Of a stretch of DNA of 64,000 nt, positions 4,483 through 44,208 are shown one piece after another. The position numbers and the translations under genes are program-made. The stretch's first letter is position 1, and each line of letters begins with the position of its first letter. The stretch lies in contig NZ_NWMW01000002.1 of NCBI RefSeq assembly GCF_002351485.1, positions 806,001 through 870,000 of the forward strand, written 5' to 3'. The notes below the pieces were generated by a model. It was not told where the DNA came from and did not search any database. It saw only the letters and a program-made list of their open reading frames with translations. This DNA comes from Sphingomonas spermidinifaciens. Lineage in GTDB: Bacteria > Pseudomonadota > Alphaproteobacteria > Sphingomonadales > Sphingomonadaceae.

Positions 4483-5325
4483 TTGGCGGACCTGAACCTC
4501 GACATTGTCGATCAGGCGGGTGGCACCCAGCCTAGCGGCTGCGAGCAGACGCATCGGGCGGCCTGTCTCGACGGCCTCGGACAGCGTTTCGGCATCAACC
4601 AGCGCGACGTAGTCGACCGCGAAACCCGCGGCCGACAGCGCCTCGCGCGTTTGGGCAACCGCCGCTACCGGATCGCCGCCCCGCTCGATGACCTGGGCCG
4701 CGACGCCGAGCGCCCGCGGCAGCGCCGTCGCCGCGGCGCGCTCCTCGGGGGCAAGATAAAGGTTGCGCGAGGAGAGGGCGAGCCCGTCATCGTCGCGCTG
4801 CGTCGGCACCCCGACGATCTCGATGGCCATATCGAGGTCGGCGGCCATTCGGCGGATGACCGCGAGCTGCTGGAAATCCTTTTCGCCGAACAGCGCGATG
4901 TCGGCGCGAAGTTGGTTGAAGAGCTTTGCGACGACGGTGGCGACGCCGTCGAAATGCCCCGGTCGCGCCGCACCGTCGAGGCCGTCGCTGACTCCCGTCA
5001 CCGATACCGTGGTCGCAAAGCCCGCCGGATACATCGCCTCAACGGGCGGCAACCACAGGAGATCGACCCCCGCCTCGGCCAGCATGCGCGCATCGGCCTG
5101 TTCGCGTCGCGGATAGCGGTCAAGGTCCTCGCCCACCCCGAACTGCATCGGATTGACGAAGATCGACACTGCGACTCGGGCGGCGCGGCGGCGCGCCTCG
5201 GTCACCAGCGCCATGTGGCCGGCGTGCAATGCGCCCATCGTGGGAACGAGCGCGATCCGATCGCCCGCCGCTTTCCACGAGTCGATAATCGCGGTGAGCG
5301 CCGCCTTGTCACGAATGGTTTTCAC
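4477..5325 (-). CDS. panC: Pantoate--beta-alanine ligase
   Basis: A 282-residue pantothenate synthetase that joins pantoate and beta-alanine using ATP, the last step of vitamin B5 synthesis. The nucleotidyltransferase HxGH signature is in PTMGALHAGHM (H34, H37). VSIFVNPMQF, GEKDFQQLAVIRRM and SSRN are the other conserved ATP and pantoate contacts. Length matches the family. It is cytoplasmic. It is divergent from mipZ, and panB is not in the window. Confidence 0.97.
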   Translation of the reverse strand: MKTIRDKAALTAIIDSWKAAGDRIALVPTMGALHAGHMALVTEARRRAARVAVSIFVNPMQFGVGEDLDRYPRREQADARMLAEAGVDLLWLPPVEAMYPAGFATTVSVTGVSDGLDGAARPGHFDGVATVVAKLFNQLRADIALFGEKDFQQLAVIRRMAADLDMAIEIVGVPTQRDDDGLALSSRNLYLAPEERAAATALPRALGVAAQVIERGGDPVAAVAQTREALSAAGFAVDYVALVDAETLSEAVETGRPMRLLAAARLGATRLIDNVEVQVRQG

Positions 5326-36765: not shown

Positions 36766-37251
36766 ATGTATGACTTCAACATCGCCGCCGGCACCAAACC
36801 CGAGCTGTACCGTGACCTCCACGCCGCGCTCGACGCGCTGACCGCGGGCGAGCCCGACGCGATTGCCAACATGGCCAATGCCGCGGCCCTGATCGGGCAG
36901 TATCTGCCCGATCTCAACTGGTCGGGCTTCTACCGATTCGTTGGCGACGAGCTCGTCCTCGGGCCGTTCCAGGGCAAGGCGGCGTGCATCCGCATTCCGC
37001 TCGGCAAGGGCGTGTGCGGCACCGCCGCGGCATCACATGAGACGCAACTGGTTGAGGACGTCCACGCCTTTCCCGGCCATATCGCTTGCGACGCGGCGAG
37101 CCGGTCCGAGCTGGTCGTGCCCATTGTCGTCGAAGGGCGATTGATCGGCGTACTCGACCTCGACAGCCCCAGGCCTGCGCGCTTCGATGCCGAGGATGCG
37201 GCCGGATGCGAGGCGCTGATGGCGCTGCTAGGCCCGCGTATCGCCGGCTGA
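36766..37251 (+). CDS. msrC: Free methionine-(R)-sulfoxide reductase (GAF domain)
   Basis: A 161-residue single-GAF enzyme that repairs free Met-R-sulfoxide. The three cysteines of the E. coli enzyme are conserved: C74 (AACIRI), C84 (GKGVCG) and C108 (HIACD), the last catalytic. NWSGFYRF and LIGVLDLDSP complete the family pattern. It is cytoplasmic, probably using thioredoxin. It lies among stress-type genes, 39 bases after the small membrane protein. Confidence 0.93.
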   Translation: MYDFNIAAGTKPELYRDLHAALDALTAGEPDAIANMANAAALIGQYLPDLNWSGFYRFVGDELVLGPFQGKAACIRIPLGKGVCGTAAASHETQLVEDVHAFPGHIACDAASRSELVVPIVVEGRLIGVLDLDSPRPARFDAEDAAGCEALMALLGPRIAG

Positions 37252-37384
37252 CCTGACCCGCAGCGGGACAGTTTGCCGCGCCCCACGGATTCGCGACTCG
37301 TTCCGCGATCGGTTAAGAAACCATGAACCATCTGCGCCGTTCAGCGCAGGCACATGGGCTTTTGACAGGGAGGCCGCGGGGCCG

Positions 37385-38527
37385 ATGCGAACGATGCTGA
37401 TCCTGGCGCTGGCAGCGACCACTGCCGCCACGCCGCTTACGATGGCTGAGGCGCAGGTCGCCGGCGCGCGGATGGGCGGCGGGATGCAGCGCCCAACGGC
37501 CCGGCCTGGCGGGTGGCAGCGGCCGATGGTGCGGCCGGGCGGCTGGCAACGCCCGATCGTTCGGCCCGGCGGCCACTGGAACAACGGCAAGCGCTGGGGC
37601 TGGCGTTTCAACAATCGCTGGGTCGGCGGCTGGCGGGCGCCGGGCGGCTGGGCTGCCTATCGCCCGGCGGTGCGCGGCTGGGTACTGCCGCGCTACTGGA
37701 TCGCGCCGAGCTTCTTCATTTCGGACTTCGGCGCCTATGGCCTTGCCGCGCCGCAGCCGGGTTATGGCTGGTATCGCTATTATGACGATGCGGTGATGAT
37801 CGACAATTACGGGCGCGTTGAAGACAGCGTGCGCGGGGTCGACTGGAACCGCGGCGGTGACGCCTATTACGATTATGACGAGGACTACCGGCCTGATCTT
37901 TACGACCAGGGTTATTACGACCGCGAGTATGCCGAGCGCGACCGCCGCAGCGACACCGACGTCGTGTCGCGTGACCGCGACGGGGGTGTCGGGGGTGCGG
38001 TGATCGGCGGCGCGGCGGGCGCGGTGGCTGGCGCGGCGATTGCCGGGCGCGGCAACCGCCTGCCCGGCGCGCTGATCGGCGGCGGCGTCGGTGCCGTCGC
38101 GGGCGCCGCGATCGACCGGGCCGAGGATGGTCGGCGCGGCCCGCCGCCTCCGCCGCCGCCTGGCTATGACGGCCGCGGTGCGCCGTTCGCCCCGCCGCGC
38201 GAGGTGGTTCAGCCGTTGCCAGGCGACGAGCACTATGCCGAGCATTATGAGGATGATCGCGGCGGAGGCGCACGCGAGGTCCGCACTGTCCATCATGGCG
38301 GCGGACATACGACCTATCATCCGGGCGGCACGACGGTGACGACGAGCGGCGGTGGCTATATCGCGGGCGGCTGGTATTATCCGCCCACGACGACGACCGT
38401 CGTGACGGTCAGCTCGGCCCCTGTCACGACCACGACGGTGACAGAGGAATATGTCAGCTACCACGCACCGACGCGGAAGGTGGTGAAGCGCCGGTGGCAT
38501 CGCGGCAAGCGGTGCTATTGCCGGTGA
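37385..38527 (+). CDS. Exported RcnB-family protein with glycine-zipper region
   Basis: A 380-residue exported protein: signal peptide (ending MAEAQ); N-terminal tandem RPGGWQRP repeats at ~38-62; an RcnB-like segment (WVLPRYWIAPSFFISDFGAYGL, GYGWYRYYDDAVMID); and a Tyr/Asp-rich linker. Two glycine-zipper helices follow at ~200-238 (GGAVIGGAAGAVAGAAIAG, GALIGGGVGAVAGAAI). The tail is His/Thr-rich, ending with CYCR. RcnB proteins are periplasmic with a link to nickel/cobalt homeostasis. The zipper suggests membrane association, so this looks like an envelope protein. Confidence 0.8.
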   Translation: MRTMLILALAATTAATPLTMAEAQVAGARMGGGMQRPTARPGGWQRPMVRPGGWQRPIVRPGGHWNNGKRWGWRFNNRWVGGWRAPGGWAAYRPAVRGWVLPRYWIAPSFFISDFGAYGLAAPQPGYGWYRYYDDAVMIDNYGRVEDSVRGVDWNRGGDAYYDYDEDYRPDLYDQGYYDREYAERDRRSDTDVVSRDRDGGVGGAVIGGAAGAVAGAAIAGRGNRLPGALIGGGVGAVAGAAIDRAEDGRRGPPPPPPPGYDGRGAPFAPPREVVQPLPGDEHYAEHYEDDRGGGAREVRTVHHGGGHTTYHPGGTTVTTSGGGYIAGGWYYPPTTTTVVTVSSAPVTTTTVTEEYVSYHAPTRKVVKRRWHRGKRCYCR

Positions 38528-38665: not shown

Positions 38666-39469
38666 CTACCCGTTCAGCGCCGCCAGCAGCTTCGCTTCCA
38701 GCCACGCTTTGTCCTCTGGCCGGTGGAAGCTGTGGCTGTCGGTATCCAGTACCTGCAGCTCGATGCGGTCGCGCAGCGCCGCGTAGGCGGGCGTCTGCCA
38801 TGCCTCGACAAAGGCGATGGCGGTGTTGTCGCGACGGGCGATCAGGATCGTCGCGTGCTTGTTTGCCAGCCCCGCCGCTACGCGTGCGGCGAGCCCCTCT
38901 GGCGCCGCCGCCTCGCCGCTGCTGAGCTTGGCAAGCCCGCCAGCGAGCTTCCTGAGGTTCACGCCGCCTGTCAGCAGCCGGCCCCATGCCCTCGGATCGC
39001 GCAGCCGCTCGGCATAGCGCGCGCGGATCGCCGAGGCAGGCGGGAGCGCATCGGCGGTCGGCTCGATCACCCAGGGATTGGCGAGGACGAGCGCGTCGAT
39101 GCCGCTCGTGTCATGGAGCGCGAGCGCACTCGCCGCATCGCAATTGCCGAAAGCGACGATGCGCGTCAGGCCGGGCACCGCCGCCCGAAACGCGGTGATG
39201 GCGGCGGCGATGTCGGGGCCGCTTGCCTCGAAGCCGCGGTTGATGCCGGTGGAATCGCCGATGCCGCGCCGGTCGAAGCGGAAGACCGGATGACCTGCCG
39301 CCGTCAGCCTTTGTGCCATCAGCGCCATGCCCCGATGCGCGCCGATGCGAAGCTCGTTGCCGCCCGACACGATCAGGAGGCCGCGTGTGGAGGCGGCGCG
39401 ATCGAGTGTGCCGACCAGCGCGTCGCCGGCACAGGCGAAGGTGATCAGCTCGCGCACTGCTTCACCCAT
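38666..39469 (-). CDS. Exosortase-A-system-associated hydrolase 1
   Basis: A 267-residue alpha/beta hydrolase like TIGR03100, part of the exosortase A/PEP-CTERM polysaccharide region in many proteobacteria. GLLIVSGGNELRIGAHRGM, FRFDRRGIGDSTG and a late His (DTDSHSFHRP) match the fold. The nucleophile elbow is AFGNCDAASA, so C110 stands where Ser normally is, as in dienelactone hydrolases. ATG 39469 overlaps the end of hydrolase 2 by 25 bases. The natural substrate is unknown. Terminal gene of the reverse-strand operon. Confidence 0.85.
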   Translation of the reverse strand: MGEAVRELITFACAGDALVGTLDRAASTRGLLIVSGGNELRIGAHRGMALMAQRLTAAGHPVFRFDRRGIGDSTGINRGFEASGPDIAAAITAFRAAVPGLTRIVAFGNCDAASALALHDTSGIDALVLANPWVIEPTADALPPASAIRARYAERLRDPRAWGRLLTGGVNLRKLAGGLAKLSSGEAAAPEGLAARVAAGLANKHATILIARRDNTAIAFVEAWQTPAYAALRDRIELQVLDTDSHSFHRPEDKAWLEAKLLAALNG

Positions 39470-40113
39470 TCGGCCAGGTCGGCGGCCAGTTCGCGCGCCA
39501 TCGCCGGATTGTTGTCGGGCTCCGCCCGGCGCCACAACGGTCGGGCGATGATCTTGCGGTCGGCGGGCGCCGCGTCGGTGTCCAGGCGCAGCGTGCGTAA
39601 GGCAGGCCCGGCATAGGGCACCGCGCCCTGCAACTCAGCGAGCATCGCGCGCGAGAGGAGGTTGCCGGCGAGTTCGACCGGCGGGCCGTCGCCGGCGATT
39701 GCCTTGGCATCGAACGCCTCGCCCGAGTCCTTCGCCGCCGCCTGTCGCGCGCGGACCATGTCGCGAACGAGCGCCGCGCCGGTGACGGGGGCGAAATGCC
39801 AGCGTGACTGGCAATTGGCGCGCCCGTCGTAAAGCGTGCCGCCGCGCATCGCGGCGATGTGGACGCGCAGCCCCTCGCGCGTCAGCTTCTCCTCTGCCGC
39901 TGCGAGGGCATCGCGCCAGTCGTCAAGCGAGGCGGCCTCGGTGGCGATCAGGCTCTCGCCCTGGCCGGGCATGTCAGGCAGCGCCGCGCCGATGCCGTGG
40001 TCGCCGAGCGCGCGAAGCAGCGTGACGAAGAAGGCGCGGAGGCGATTGGCTTCCTCGAACGGGGGCATCGCCGCGAGCACGACCTCGCGGGTCCGCGGGC
40101 CGAAGCGCAGCAT
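39445..40113 (-). CDS. Exosortase-A-system-associated hydrolase 2-like protein
   Basis: A 222-residue protein placed where TIGR03101-type hydrolase 2 usually lies. VVLAAMPPFEEANRLRAFFVTLLRALGDHG and ALPDMPGQGES match its fold. The elbow reads HIAAMRGGT (85-93), with no Ser or Cys at the nucleophile position, so it may be inactive or use other chemistry. The reading frame continues upstream of ATG 40113 (LIDDYAWSGGREP) to the ACP stop. The true start may therefore be a CTG at about 40152, or the first ATG was lost. Confidence 0.72.
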   Translation of the reverse strand: MLRFGPRTREVVLAAMPPFEEANRLRAFFVTLLRALGDHGIGAALPDMPGQGESLIATEAASLDDWRDALAAAEEKLTREGLRVHIAAMRGGTLYDGRANCQSRWHFAPVTGAALVRDMVRARQAAAKDSGEAFDAKAIAGDGPPVELAGNLLSRAMLAELQGAVPYAGPALRTLRLDTDAAPADRKIIARPLWRRAEPDNNPAMARELAADLAEWVKQCAS

Positions 40114-40148
40114 CGGCTCGCGCCCGCCGCTCCAGGCATAATCGTCGA

Positions 40149-40421
40149 TCAGGCGGAAACCTTGCTGACGGCGAAGCGGGTGAGGGCGCCGAAGGTTTCG
40201 AGCGTGTCACCGTCGATGTCGTCGTCGTCGATGACGATGCCGAGGCGATCCTCGAGTTCGGTCAGCACGCCGGCGACCGCCATCGAATCGAGCTCCGGCA
40301 AGGCGCCGAACAGCGGCGTCGTCGCATCGAACCCCTCGACCTGTGCGTCCGACAAGCCGAGCACGTCGCGCAGGACCGCGCGGACGGTCGCCTCGATCTC
40401 GCCATGCTGTTCCGAAATCAT
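40149..40421 (-). CDS. Acyl carrier protein of the exosortase-associated module
   Basis: A 90-residue acidic four-helix carrier. The phosphopantetheine serine is S46 in PELDSMAVAGVL, and the C-terminal half (LEDRLGIVIDDDDIDGDTLETFGAL) is typical. GGGGATAGACG precedes the ATG. Encoded between hydrolase 2 and the GNAT gene, it probably carries the acyl group activated by the divergent AMP ligase. It is not the fatty-acid AcpP by context. Confidence 0.9.
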   Translation of the reverse strand: MISEQHGEIEATVRAVLRDVLGLSDAQVEGFDATTPLFGALPELDSMAVAGVLTELEDRLGIVIDDDDIDGDTLETFGALTRFAVSKVSA

Positions 40422-40451
40422 CGTCTATCCCCAAGATGTTTTGCCGCGCGC

Positions 40452-41465
40452 CTAGCGGCCCACCGCGCGCCGGACAAGCGTCGCGGCGATCATCGCGAGC
40501 CCGACGGGGTGGCGCGGGTTCGACGCCTCGATCCGCCAGAGCGTGTGCGCGGTGTCCATCCAGTCGGCCTTGTAGGGCTGGTCGCCGGTGCCATAGTCGA
40601 TGAGCGCGGGGCGATCGCGCTCGATCACATGCGCGAACATCGCGTGGCTCAGGATCGAGCCCGGCGACAGCGCCCTCGCATCCTCGCGATAGGCGAGCTT
40701 GTGGATCGTCGCGCGGCCATGCTCGACGGTCCAGAGCTGCGCGGCGAGCGGCTGGCCATTCTTCGATGCGATGCCGAGGCGCAGCGTGCCCGCTGCGCCC
40801 TCCGCCTCAGCCATGGCGCGCAGGAACGGCCAGCTGCCTTCCTCGCCCTTCCAGCTCGCGGCATAGATCGCCTCGTAAGCTTTCCAGGCTTCCGACGAGA
40901 ACGACCGGTGGATGGCGATGTCGAGCTTCGCCTTCTTGCCCTTGCGCTCGACGGTCGAGCGCAGCTTGCCGGGGCGCGCGGCCCAGAACGCGGCGAAGTC
41001 GGTGCCCGGGGCGATGCGCCAGTTGACGCTCATCGGCGTGACCGACACGCGCCAGCCCGCGGCGCGAAAGGCATCGGCCAGCGCCTCGGGCTCCTCGACG
41101 GGGGAGAGTTCGACATGGCCGATTGCGCCCAGGCAATCGGGCAGCGCGGCGAGTGGGGCGTCCCCGATCGTTACTGCGTCGAAGGCCAGCGTATACCAGT
41201 TCGCCAGCGCGCGTGCCCGCGCGCCGCGGCGCATCAGGAACAGCCACGCGGTCCCACCACCGCGCCGGGCACGGGCAATCAGCGGGCGCCCCGACGGGGG
41301 GCAATTGCCGAGCGTCCGCTCGAACCATTCGAGCCGGTCGTAAAGCCGCGGTTGGCGCGCCCGGTCGAGCGCACCCGCAGCATCGCGCGCGACCGCGTCC
41401 AGATCGGTGAAAAGAGCGCAATCGGCGCGCACAAGGGCCTCGTAATCGGCTTGTTTACCGTGCAC
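40452..41465 (-). CDS. GNAT/BioF2-like acetyltransferase (FemAB-related)
   Basis: A 337-residue protein of the acetyltransferase group of FemAB/BioF2 type. The conserved half is WRIAPGTDFAAFWAARPGKLRSTVERKGKK, AYEAIYAASWKGEEGSW and LRLGIASKNGQPLAAQLWTVEHGRATIHKLAYRED, followed by IDYGTGDQPYKADW. It likely transfers an acyl or aminoacyl group to an amine. GTG 41465 is the start taken because the divergent ligase gene begins at 41483; no strong site helps. The frame further upstream overlaps that gene. It is next to the ACP gene. Confidence 0.8.
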   Translation of the reverse strand: MHGKQADYEALVRADCALFTDLDAVARDAAGALDRARQPRLYDRLEWFERTLGNCPPSGRPLIARARRGGGTAWLFLMRRGARARALANWYTLAFDAVTIGDAPLAALPDCLGAIGHVELSPVEEPEALADAFRAAGWRVSVTPMSVNWRIAPGTDFAAFWAARPGKLRSTVERKGKKAKLDIAIHRSFSSEAWKAYEAIYAASWKGEEGSWPFLRAMAEAEGAAGTLRLGIASKNGQPLAAQLWTVEHGRATIHKLAYREDARALSPGSILSHAMFAHVIERDRPALIDYGTGDQPYKADWMDTAHTLWRIEASNPRHPVGLAMIAATLVRRAVGR

Positions 41466-41482
41466 GCTTATGGCCGGCAGCG

Positions 41483-42997
41483 ATGAGCATCCCGTTAAAT
41501 CCCGATCCGCGACCGCTCGACCATCTGACGACGATGGGTGCGGCCGATGCACCCGCGCTGCACGACAAGGGCGGCAGCTGGACCTATGCCGAGCTGGAGG
41601 GTGCGGTCGGATCGGCAGCGGCGTGGCTGGCGGAACAGGGACTCAAGCCCGGCGATCGGGTGGCGAGCTGGCTTGCCAAGACGCGAGCGGCCTGCGTGCT
41701 GCCGTTGGCGGCAGTGCGCGCGGGGCTGGTGCATGTGCCGGTCAACCCGCTGCTCAAGCGCGGGCAGGTGGCGCATATCCTTGCCGACAGCGGCGCGCGC
41801 CTCCTGATCGCGGGCGGGCCGCGGCTGGCGACGCTGGAGGCGGGCGATGTGCCGGGCGGATGCCGGACGGTCGAGGAGGGCGAGTTGTCGCTGGTGGGCG
41901 GCGGACTGCCGCCGTCCGATGCCGATCCGCAATCGCTGGCGGCGATCCTCTATACCTCGGGCTCTACCGGGCGGCCCAAGGGGGTTATGCTGAGCCACGC
42001 GAACCTGTGGCTCGGTGCGATCAGCGTGGCGCATTATCTGGACGTGACGCCCGCCGACCGCGTGCTCGGCGTGCTGCCGCTGAGCTTCGACTATGGCCAG
42101 AACCAGCTGCTTTCGACCTGGGCGGCGGGAGCGAGCGTGGTGCCGCTCGACTATCTGACCGCGCGCGACGTCATCAAGGCGGTCGAGCGGTTCGGCGCGA
42201 CCAGCCTTGCCGGGGTGCCGCCGCTCTGGGTCCAGCTGCTCGATGTCGAGTGGCCGGCGGAGACCGCCGCGCGATTGAGGCGGCTGACCAACTCGGGCGG
42301 TGCGCTGACGCCGCGACTGGTGCGCGCGCTCCGCGAGCGCTTTCCGGCCGCGCGGCTGTTCCCGATGTACGGCCTGACCGAGGCGTTCCGGTCGACCTAT
42401 CTCGACCCCGATCTGGTCGATGCGCATCCCGATTCGATCGGCCGCGCCATTCCCTTCGCCGAAATCTCGGTCGTGCGCCCCGATGGCAGCCGCGCCGATG
42501 CGGACGAGCCGGGCGAGCTGGTCCATGCCGGGCCGCTCGTTGCGCAGGGCTATTGGCAGGACCCCGAGCGCACCGCGATCCGCTTCAAGCCTGCACCTTC
42601 CTTCTCCGCCTATCCCGGCATGGCGGTATGGTCGGGCGATACCGTCGTGGCGGATGCCGAAGGGCTGCTGCGCTTCGTCGGGCGCGACGACGAGATGATC
42701 AAGTCGAGCGGCAACCGCATCAGCCCGACCGAGGTCGAGGAAGTGGTGCTCGCCGGCGGCGAGGCGGGCGAGGCGGTGGCGCTGGGCGTGCCCGACGAGC
42801 GGCTGGGGCAGGCGATCGTCGTCGTCGCCAGCACGAAGGGCGATGCGGCGAATGCGGAGGCGCGGCTTCGCGAGCGGCTGAAGCGCGACCTGCCCGGCTT
42901 CATGCAGCCGCACCGCTATGTCTGGCGCGAGGCGCTGCCGCGCAACGCCAATGGGAAGCTCGATCGCTCTGGGCTGAAAGCGGAGGTGCTGTCGTGA
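41483..42997 (+). CDS. Exosortase-A-associated acyl-CoA/ACP ligase (AMP-forming)
   Basis: A 504-residue adenylating enzyme resembling TIGR03098. The ATP loop YTSGSTGRPKGV is at 157-168, FPMYGLTEAFRSTYL holds the acidic motif, and the catalytic lysine is K492 in NANGKLDRS. It activates a carboxylic acid with ATP, probably loading the adjacent ACP. It diverges from the GNAT gene by 17 bases and shares a four-base stop/start overlap with the decarboxylase. Confidence 0.93.
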   Translation: MSIPLNPDPRPLDHLTTMGAADAPALHDKGGSWTYAELEGAVGSAAAWLAEQGLKPGDRVASWLAKTRAACVLPLAAVRAGLVHVPVNPLLKRGQVAHILADSGARLLIAGGPRLATLEAGDVPGGCRTVEEGELSLVGGGLPPSDADPQSLAAILYTSGSTGRPKGVMLSHANLWLGAISVAHYLDVTPADRVLGVLPLSFDYGQNQLLSTWAAGASVVPLDYLTARDVIKAVERFGATSLAGVPPLWVQLLDVEWPAETAARLRRLTNSGGALTPRLVRALRERFPAARLFPMYGLTEAFRSTYLDPDLVDAHPDSIGRAIPFAEISVVRPDGSRADADEPGELVHAGPLVAQGYWQDPERTAIRFKPAPSFSAYPGMAVWSGDTVVADAEGLLRFVGRDDEMIKSSGNRISPTEVEEVVLAGGEAGEAVALGVPDERLGQAIVVVASTKGDAANAEARLRERLKRDLPGFMQPHRYVWREALPRNANGKLDRSGLKAEVLS

Positions 42998-44208
42998 AGC
43001 CGATGGGACCGATTCCGCCGCATTTCGCTGGGAGCGAGAAGCTGACGATCGCCGGGCACGACGCCGAGCATTGGATCGAACAGGCCGGCGACACGCCGCT
43101 GTTCGTCTACGACATGGGCGAGGTGCGCGCGCGGCTGGCGCGACTGCGTGCGGCGATGCCAGCGCGGCTCGACATCCATTACGCGATCAAGGCCAATCCG
43201 CACCCGCAAGTGCTCGCGGCGATCGCGCCGCTGGTCGACGGGCTCGACGTCGCGTCGGGGGGCGAGTTGGTCAAGGCGCTCGCAGTCAAGGACGAGAGAG
43301 TCATCAGCTTCGCCGGACCCGGCAAGCGCGACGACGAACTGGAACTCGGGATCCGTGAAGGCGCGACGCTCAACCTCGAATCGGAGGGGGAGGGTATCCG
43401 TGCGCTGGCGATCGGCGAGCGGCTGGGGCTGCGGCCGCGGCTGGCAATCCGGGTCAATCCCGATTTCGACCTCAAGGGATCGGGGATGAAGATGGGCGGG
43501 CGACCCTCGCCCTTCGGCATCGACGCCGTGCGCGTGCCGGCGTTGGTGCGCGAGTTGCTGGCCGCCGGCGCCGACTGGCGCGGCTTCCACATCTATGCCG
43601 GGTCGCAGGCGCTGTCGGCGGCGGCGATCATCGAGACGCAGGCGGCGACAGTGGCGCTCGCCCGGCGGCTGGCGGACGAGGCGGGAGCCGAGGCGCCGCA
43701 CGTCAATCTCGGCGGCGGGTTCGGCATCCCCTATTTCGCGGGCGACGAAGCCCTCGATATCGAGGCGGTCGGCGGCGCGCTGGCCGAGACGCTCGATCGC
43801 GACGGGGCAGCGGAGACGCAGTACGCGATCGAACTCGGCCGCTGGATGGTCGGCGAGTGCGGCGTCTACCTGACCCGTGTGATCGACTTGAAGGAAAGCC
43901 AGGGCGAGCGCTTCGTCGTCGTCGATGGCGGCATGCATCACCAGCTGGCCGCGAGCGGCAATTTCGGGACGGTGGTGCGGCGCAATTATCCGATCGCGGT
44001 CGCCGGGCGGATGACGGGCGAACTCAGCGAGGTGTCGGTGGTCGGCAGCCTTTGCACCCCGCTCGACCGGCTGGGCGACAAGGTGGGCCTGCCCGAGGTG
44101 GCGGTGGGCGACGTAATCGCGGTGTTCCTGGCGGGCGCCTATGGGTTCACCGCAAGTCCGGGGCTGTTCCTGGGGCACCCGGCAGCGCGGGAGATCGTGG
44201 TGGGTTGA
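42994..44208 (+). CDS. PLP-dependent decarboxylase, exosortase-A-associated
   Basis: A 404-residue fold-III decarboxylase resembling TIGR03099, related to diaminopimelate and ornithine decarboxylases. The PLP lysine is K66 in HYAIKANPHP; GGGFGIPYF is the phosphate loop and VGSLCTPLDRLG holds the catalytic Cys. The start is GTG 42994, with GGAGG 7 bases upstream, overlapping the ligase stop. It produces an amine from an unknown amino acid. The substrate-specificity helix differs from LysA, so it is not taken for lysine synthesis. Confidence 0.93.
   Translation: MKPMGPIPPHFAGSEKLTIAGHDAEHWIEQAGDTPLFVYDMGEVRARLARLRAAMPARLDIHYAIKANPHPQVLAAIAPLVDGLDVASGGELVKALAVKDERVISFAGPGKRDDELELGIREGATLNLESEGEGIRALAIGERLGLRPRLAIRVNPDFDLKGSGMKMGGRPSPFGIDAVRVPALVRELLAAGADWRGFHIYAGSQALSAAAIIETQAATVALARRLADEAGAEAPHVNLGGGFGIPYFAGDEALDIEAVGGALAETLDRDGAAETQYAIELGRWMVGECGVYLTRVIDLKESQGERFVVVDGGMHHQLAASGNFGTVVRRNYPIAVAGRMTGELSEVSVVGSLCTPLDRLGDKVGLPEVAVGDVIAVFLAGAYGFTASPGLFLGHPAAREIVVG

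Follow-up and report, generated by a model that had tools for sequence, protein, structure and literature searches.

A six-gene block at positions 38666-44208 of a 64-kb stretch of the Sphingomonas spermidinifaciens genome (the window; G000:C2:806001-870000 in a 3.6-Mb genome, with G, C and L numbers being our handles for genomes, contigs and loci) is best explained, in its core, as a pathway that builds beta-alanyl groups on a carrier protein and can render the aspartate 1-decarboxylase PanD dispensable, and we put the probability of this explanation as a whole at about 0.5. The core consists of an AMP-forming ligase, a stand-alone acyl carrier protein (ACP) and a decarboxylase dependent on pyridoxal phosphate (PLP). 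Beta-alanine is needed for coenzyme A (CoA). In the proposed route the ligase would adenylate an aspartate-like amino acid at the beta-carboxylate and load it onto the ACP, and the PLP enzyme would then strip the alpha-carboxylate from the carrier-bound residue, leading from Asp by way of beta-aspartyl-ACP to beta-alanyl-S-ACP. We propose this sequence because the ligase has a VinN-like pocket, the decarboxylase resembles BtrK and the order of steps is that of vicenistatin biosynthesis, in which VinO decarboxylates. The distribution of the genes suggests that beta-alanine could be set free from the carrier and supplied to PanC for CoA synthesis. In loci with exosortase A (XrtA) and exopolysaccharide (EPS) genes, or in other polysaccharide loci, the beta-alanyl group might also be transferred to a surface acceptor, in this genome perhaps by a FemX-like protein and a hydrolase with a Cys triad.

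The six tightly spaced genes were found in two divergent arms, as the initial annotation had described. The minus arm contains, in order, the GNAT-like gene (40452 to about 41465, start codon uncertain), the ACP (40149-40421), hydrolase 2 (39445-40152) and hydrolase 1 (38666-39469), and the plus arm contains the ligase (41483-42997) followed by the decarboxylase, which ends at 44208 and probably starts at the GTG at 42994, overlapping the ligase stop. With the curated NCBIfam cut-offs, the ligase passed that of TIGR03098 (645.5 bits, cut-off 592.35), the decarboxylase that of TIGR03099 (506.0 bits, cut-off 478.45) and hydrolase 1 that of TIGR03100 (230.9 bits, cut-off 168.45), while hydrolase 2 gave only a weak match to TIGR03101 (31.8 bits, cut-off 202.75), so the resemblance claimed for all four families held for three of them. 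The ACP matched PF00550 and the GNAT matched PF13480 and no NCBIfam family; an Rfam scan of the window gave 0 matches. TIGR03098-03101 are NCBIfam entries of the kind hypoth_equivalog, carried without a function name. In the open-access literature we found no experimental paper on these families and none stating the CoA route, and the original description of PEP-CTERM (PMC1569441) contains none of six words looked for, ligase and decarboxylase among them.

The ligase is predicted to be of the aspartate type, activating the beta-carboxylate and loading the ACP. When the full-length protein was compared with solved structures, the top scores belonged to two-domain gramicidin synthases in which two matches are summed; the best single-domain chain was VinN (3wvn, 192.3 bits), and for a 177-residue fragment covering the pocket VinN came first at 3e-23, with the next different enzyme at 1.2e-14. 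The pocket alignment was free of gaps through the specificity loop, which has the same length in both proteins, and VinN Asp230, Phe231, Ser299, Lys330 and Arg331 corresponded to ligase Asp203 and Tyr204 (42089-42094), Ser271 (42293-42295), Phe302 and Arg303 (42389-42391, in the shortened beta13-beta14 loop). The marks of beta-amino acid activation given in the consulted portion of PMC11253843 are Phe231, Ser299 and a shorter loop, with Asp230 as the ligand of the amino group; the ligase has all of them (D, Y and S, with Tyr204 as the bulky residue at 231). All 54 ligase rows compared (52 distinct) had the pocket Asp and Arg; the residue at the Tyr204 site was Tyr or Ala, with a single Phe, and that at the Ser271 site was Ser or Thr, with a single Ala.

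According to the passages of PMC11284099 that deal with vicenistatin, 3-methylaspartate is attached to VinL by VinN before VinO decarboxylates it, this decarboxylation requires prior thioester formation, and FlvN (fluvirucin) uses Asp. The core shares with VinN-VinL-VinO and FlvN a stand-alone AMP ligase, an ACP and a PLP decarboxylase in series, and with VinN itself the residues Asp230, Ser299 and Arg331 and the loop length. It differs in that no polyketide synthase was recognized in the block, in that it occurs in xrtA/EPS loci and in small genomes, in that panD is depleted, and in that the Lys of the VinN Lys330-Arg331 pair is replaced by Phe, a substitution that weighs against the assignment.

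The decarboxylase (42994-44208, plus strand) is predicted to act on beta-aspartyl-ACP. Its closest solved structure was BtrK (227.9 bits), followed by 6knh (148.8 bits; labelled diaminopimelate (DAP) decarboxylase, and which we take to be SbnH), with DAP decarboxylases at no more than 136.3 bits. A role as DAP decarboxylase was rejected, the TIGR01048 score of 212.6 bits being under the cut-off of 297.9. Lys70 of this protein (P0006; codon 43189-43191, checked), in the motif YAIKANP, was invariant in 19 of 19 sequences and is presumably the PLP lysine. The ACP (minus strand) belongs to a family conserved in 18 sequences, and its phosphopantetheine site Ser46 (codon 40284-40286, checked), in ELDSMAV, was invariant in 18/18. 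BtrK, as described in the part of PMC7857480 consulted, acts on glutamyl-S-BtrI, in which the amino acid is bound to a carrier. The block differs from the BtrK-BtrI system of butirosin in its AMP-forming ligase and in that no aminoglycoside genes were recognized in it. The butirosin ligase BtrJ is of another type.

These features of the two enzymes bear on the chemistry first proposed for the block, in which an acid activated onto the ACP and a free amine made by decarboxylation would be joined by the GNAT to give an N-acyl amine signal or lipid. The gene list is compatible with such a route in principle, and exosortase-linked N-acyl amino acid synthases were reportedly described by Craig et al. 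in 2011. We nevertheless found the proposal unsupported and consider it very improbable, as the decarboxylase is nearest to a carrier-protein-dependent enzyme, the ligase pocket resembles that of a beta-amino acid ligase and none of the nine fetched stretches from the same genus (L050-L058) contained the GNAT. A core that makes some other carrier-bound amine for a secondary metabolite, with Glu as the source of gamma-aminobutyryl-ACP or 3-methylaspartate as that of 3-aminoisobutyryl-ACP, for example, is a little easier to entertain, given that BtrK uses Glu, that VinN uses 3-methylaspartate and that the pocket varies (Tyr/Ala, Ser/Thr) across the ligase family. It is nonetheless unlikely, since the core is kept in small genomes with no further pathway genes recognized in the stretch and since it would leave the depletion of panD unexplained.

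Conservation of the core was followed with our own profiles in fetched stretches of about 15-20 kb, shorter at contig ends. When 147 genomes of the window's order were scored for TIGR03099 and XrtA, 85 were over the cut-off for the former and 99 for the latter; 72 had both, 13 the decarboxylase only, 27 XrtA only and 35 neither. The 13 decarboxylase-only genomes provided 12 readable loci (L070-L081; G023, with a 3.4-kb contig, L082, was left out), and ACP, ligase and decarboxylase were together in 12/12, in agreement with the earlier claim that the genes belong together. The GNAT was found in one of the 12 (L076), and both hydrolases were found in L076, a weaker match lay kilobases away in L074, and none was in the stretch in the remaining 10. 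Two of these genomes (G030 and G105) retain an exosortase match under the cut-off. Those of these genomes that belong to the window's family are scattered over as many as seven positions in the tree, some of them with poor support, a pattern suggesting that xrtA was lost several times and the core retained. In L072 (8096-10963) and L074 (8303-11299) the core was seen among genes whose starts, by eye, resemble truA, fmt and def.

Beyond the order, ten loci over the TIGR03099 cut-off (L106-L115) had the ligase in 9/10, the ACP in 9/10 and xrtA in 0/10 within the stretch. Among 80 named loci of other groups the ligase lay directly upstream of the decarboxylase (<400 bp) in 73, and the two were adjacent in 48 of a subset of 50. 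On pSymB of Sinorhizobium meliloti (L212 7917-11046) the ligase (740.0 bits), the decarboxylase (579.6 bits) and a gene for a phosphopantetheine protein form an unbroken run, and our profiles detected no xrtA, hydrolase or GNAT in the 17-kb stretch. Neighborhood comparison has found the core conserved jointly in relatives and the trio also on this replicon; the grouping is not due to chance, and the three proteins probably work one after another on a single molecule. The suggestion of a module working independently is correct for genomes that keep the trio without an over-cut-off xrtA and incorrect for this genome, which has xrtA.

PanD is a pyruvoyl enzyme acting on free Asp and has the predicted end product, beta-alanine, in common with the core. 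No match to panD (TIGR00223) was found in the G000 genome. The panC gene (TIGR00018, 301.2 bits; 4495-5325, minus strand, G000:C2:810495-811325), whose product is the predicted consumer of the module product, is in the same window, at a distance of about 33 kb from the block. Within the order, panD was present in 20 of the 147 genomes, namely 0/85 decarboxylase-positive and 20/62 negative genomes, and with only xrtA-positive genomes counted, 0/72 with the decarboxylase and 17/27 without it. Among panD-negative genomes panC was present in 83/85 with the decarboxylase and 27/42 without it, presence being a match at E <= 0.001 (1/130 under cut-off). The genome lists for xrtA linkage and for these panD and panC counts were transcribed by hand. 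In a draw of 299 genomes from the phylum, TIGR03099 was over the cut-off in 26 (eight families) and panD was found in 0/26 of these, compared with 137/299 overall.

A second order of 299 genomes, 55 of them decarboxylase-positive, was compared within 14 mixed families, leaving out the families with positives only (f59, f81 and f105). There panD was counted in 17/39 positive and 68/88 negative genomes (odds ratio 0.02, p 3e-5). Here panD was deduced from counts of the matches listed, with no more than four candidates scored per genome; the decarboxylase takes one candidate slot, so that the comparison leans towards missing panD, and families and counts were again transcribed by hand.

Published counts for the group point the same way. 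Table A2 of PMC7142369 gives for 19 Sphingomonadales ADC 0, GAD 0, PYD3 2 and panC product 18, therefore no decarboxylase route from a free amino acid and few uracil routes, and with PanC in 18 and neither PanD nor GAD the source of beta-alanine in these bacteria looks open. That many panC-positive, panD-negative bacteria, most sphingomonads included, obtain the beta-alanine for CoA from aspartate that is decarboxylated while bound to its own carrier protein, and may decorate a surface polymer with the same group, is a tentative proposal to which we give slightly less than even odds. The enzymes are of known families and the carrier-bound logic is already familiar from antibiotic pathways; its use for CoA would, to our knowledge, be new. 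If the proposal is true, "hypothetical" exosortase-associated families can be given a definite function, a carrier-protein step of antibiotic type closes a gap in primary metabolism, exosortase research gains a testable chemical, the beta-alanyl donor, and the label "exosortase A system-associated" of TIGR03098 and TIGR03099 would be owed to their adjoining xrtA in many genomes.

Several observations weigh against the core as a general replacement for PanD. At the level of the order the exclusion is confounded by descent, because all 20 panD-positive genomes belong to family f5. The order also includes 27 genomes that carry panC and neither panD nor an over-cut-off decarboxylase, and therefore the absence of panD does not imply the core; G006 and G088 of these carry a sub-cut-off or contig-split decarboxylase, several are incomplete, and the rest would have another source of beta-alanine, be auxotrophs or be incomplete. 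In family f38, 33/33 listed genomes have a panD match (two of them under the cut-off) together with sub-cut-off TIGR03099 relatives (about 280 bits); these genomes are small, at 1.6-3.1 Mb, and we regard their TIGR03099 relatives as a sister subfamily. G156 likewise combines panD with a sub-cut-off relative having the pocket D-Y-S-F-R. Of the 80 named loci, 50 were tested for panD, isolates first, and 12/50 of these module-bearing genomes have it, including Methylomonas, Methylovulum, Herbaspirillum, Rugamonas, Paucimonas and Accumulibacter; the core is therefore not always a PanD replacement, and strict exclusion of panD in all lineages is refuted. In the second order panD was listed for at least 8 of the 55 positives, and by the match counts all positives have it in f74, f90, f95 and f110, 5/7 in f75 and 3/4 in f115. 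An ACP was within the fetched stretch in only 36/80 named loci, and where the hydrolases are missing no enzyme is known for product release. Table A2 of PMC7142369 also lists aminotransferases (AAM) in 13/19 Sphingomonadales, GAD in 2/3 Erythrobacter, PYD3, another beta-alanine route, in Sinorhizobium meliloti strain 1021, and ADC in a total of 35 among 204 alphaproteobacteria, so that its absence is common.

Two further points on the same side concern the setting of the genes, with xrtA/EPS genes as the usual neighborhood of the decarboxylase in the order and the Sinorhizobium pSymB trio lying among glycosyltransferases and a polysaccharide deacetylase, a setting that speaks for a polymer-making role. 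They are what would be expected if the core made beta-alanyl-ACP (or gamma-aminobutyryl-ACP) solely to decorate an exopolysaccharide, lipid or PEP-CTERM protein, the loss of panD being coincidental or secondary. In the 72 genomes with both genes, xrtA and the decarboxylase were on one contig in 64 and within 20 kb in 60 (median 9.6 kb, same strand in 59/60), with three further pairs at about 25-26 kb and one at 420 kb; the genes were on different contigs in 8/72, several being fragmented assemblies. In the reference locus L059 the EPS genes are contiguous and most are named as XrtA-system families by NCBIfam (the kinase and one outer-membrane protein fall under the cut-off), and a FemX/MprF-like transferase is present in some loci. 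The retention of panD in the 12 named genomes is also easily accommodated. Less easily accommodated are the survival of the core in the 12 loci without an over-cut-off xrtA, the near disappearance of transferase and hydrolases from those stretches, and the depletion of panD within families, and for these reasons we consider a role in decoration alone somewhat unlikely. A combined reading fits best, in which a beta-alanyl route often lies beside xrtA/EPS or polysaccharide systems and also permits the loss of PanD.

Two groups of genomes stood out in the order survey. G083, G131, G121 and G133 (family f1) are near-complete and have panC and neither panD nor an over-cut-off decarboxylase, and in genus g42 (family f8) 12/13 genomes are without panC, panD and an over-cut-off decarboxylase and are possible pantothenate auxotrophs. 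Zymomonas is said to be a pantothenate auxotroph for want of aspartate decarboxylase activity, and the open-access literature gave no paper on this.

The accessory proteins of the minus arm were examined by family matches and structural models. A sequence search against solved structures was uninformative for the GNAT (40452-41465). Its model (pLDDT 80.7) had as its best matches in the PDB FemX, aminoacyl-tRNA-dependent peptide synthases of the streptothricin type and MprF (TM about 0.5-0.6), all of them aminoacyl transferases, and the protein is predicted to be an accessory aminoacyltransferase; transfer of the beta-alanyl group to an acceptor by it is a guess. Its absence from the same-genus stretches led us to reject it as a core enzyme. 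It shares a broad fold class with the XrtA-associated FemAB family TIGR03019 and differs from it in matching no NCBIfam family; a separate TIGR03019 gene is present in L059 and a FemAB homologue in the xrtA locus of this genome. Hydrolase 1 is predicted to be a Cys-Asp-His thioesterase or acyltransferase, a triad that suits thioester chemistry: the nucleophile Cys132 (39140-39142, minus strand; numbering of protein P0001) was Cys in 29/29 sequences, the window's included, and Asp236 and His268 were conserved at >=90%. Hydrolase 2 gave a model with the alpha/beta-hydrolase fold (pLDDT 79.7) in which the turn after strand 96-102, the expected place of the nucleophile, carries Arg102 (39844-39846, minus strand; numbering of protein P0002). 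Arg was found there in 31/31 sequences, the window's included, and the set contains a full TIGR03101 member at 318.2 bits (L106, 16274-17077); the Sphingomonas parapaucimobilis protein scored 38.4 bits. Hydrolase 2 is probably a non-catalytic partner, and because Arg replaces the nucleophile throughout, the "hydrolase" name of TIGR03101 is probably misleading.

The block had been described as an exosortase-associated module without an exosortase, and this is true only within the window. A genome-wide search found xrtA on another contig, at C1:867248-868024 (319.2 bits, cut-off 208; 0/14 control genomes over the cut-off), and we reject the description at the level of the genome. Locus profiles placed export, chain-length, kinase, ATPase, deacetylase, FemAB, glycosyltransferase and asnB-like genes around xrtA ("asnB" being a label given in this analysis and not a family call), and the XrtA-system O-ligase was found at C1:1892998 (193.5 bits, cut-off 188.1). 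The parts of the XrtA system are dispersed in G000 to three or more sites, the EPS/xrtA locus, the O-ligase and the module on another contig. The parallel search for PEP-CTERM motifs gave a single match over the cut-off (C3:213881, 23.4 bits), weak evidence as 2/14 controls were also over, and the PEPxxWA-CTERM search gave zero matches over the cut-off. With three of four family cut-offs passed and the module beside xrtA in relatives, the block resembles the exosortase A families TIGR03098-03101, and it differs from them in being unlinked from xrtA and in having a core that also occurs in genomes without an over-cut-off xrtA.

Since the module of relatives lies about 9.6 kb from xrtA, a linkage not found in G000, module and xrtA have been split in this genome, and barring an assembly error the separation is genuine, because both places are inside contigs of 2.1 and 1.1 Mb. 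In a tree of ligase and decarboxylase the window copy stands beside an xrtA-linked copy of the same genus with support of 100/99. The annotation of Sphingomonas parapaucimobilis has GAF-domain/RcnB-family genes on one flank of the module and XrtA-system export genes on the other; the window shares the left flank (GAF-domain and RcnB-like genes, 36766-38527, plus strand, 81% and 44% identity to those of the xrtA-linked locus) and has an ABC transporter, not XrtA export genes, on the right, which places the break immediately behind the decarboxylase. The module in G000 descends vertically within the genus and has kept its left neighbors, and a recent horizontal gain was rejected on the grounds of the tree and the shared flank. 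Among plasmid records, tblastn located the ligase on 49, of which 26 are from Sinorhizobium, and the nearest ligase was that of Sphingomonas parapaucimobilis (67.8%). One genome, G705, carries two full-length copies of the decarboxylase.

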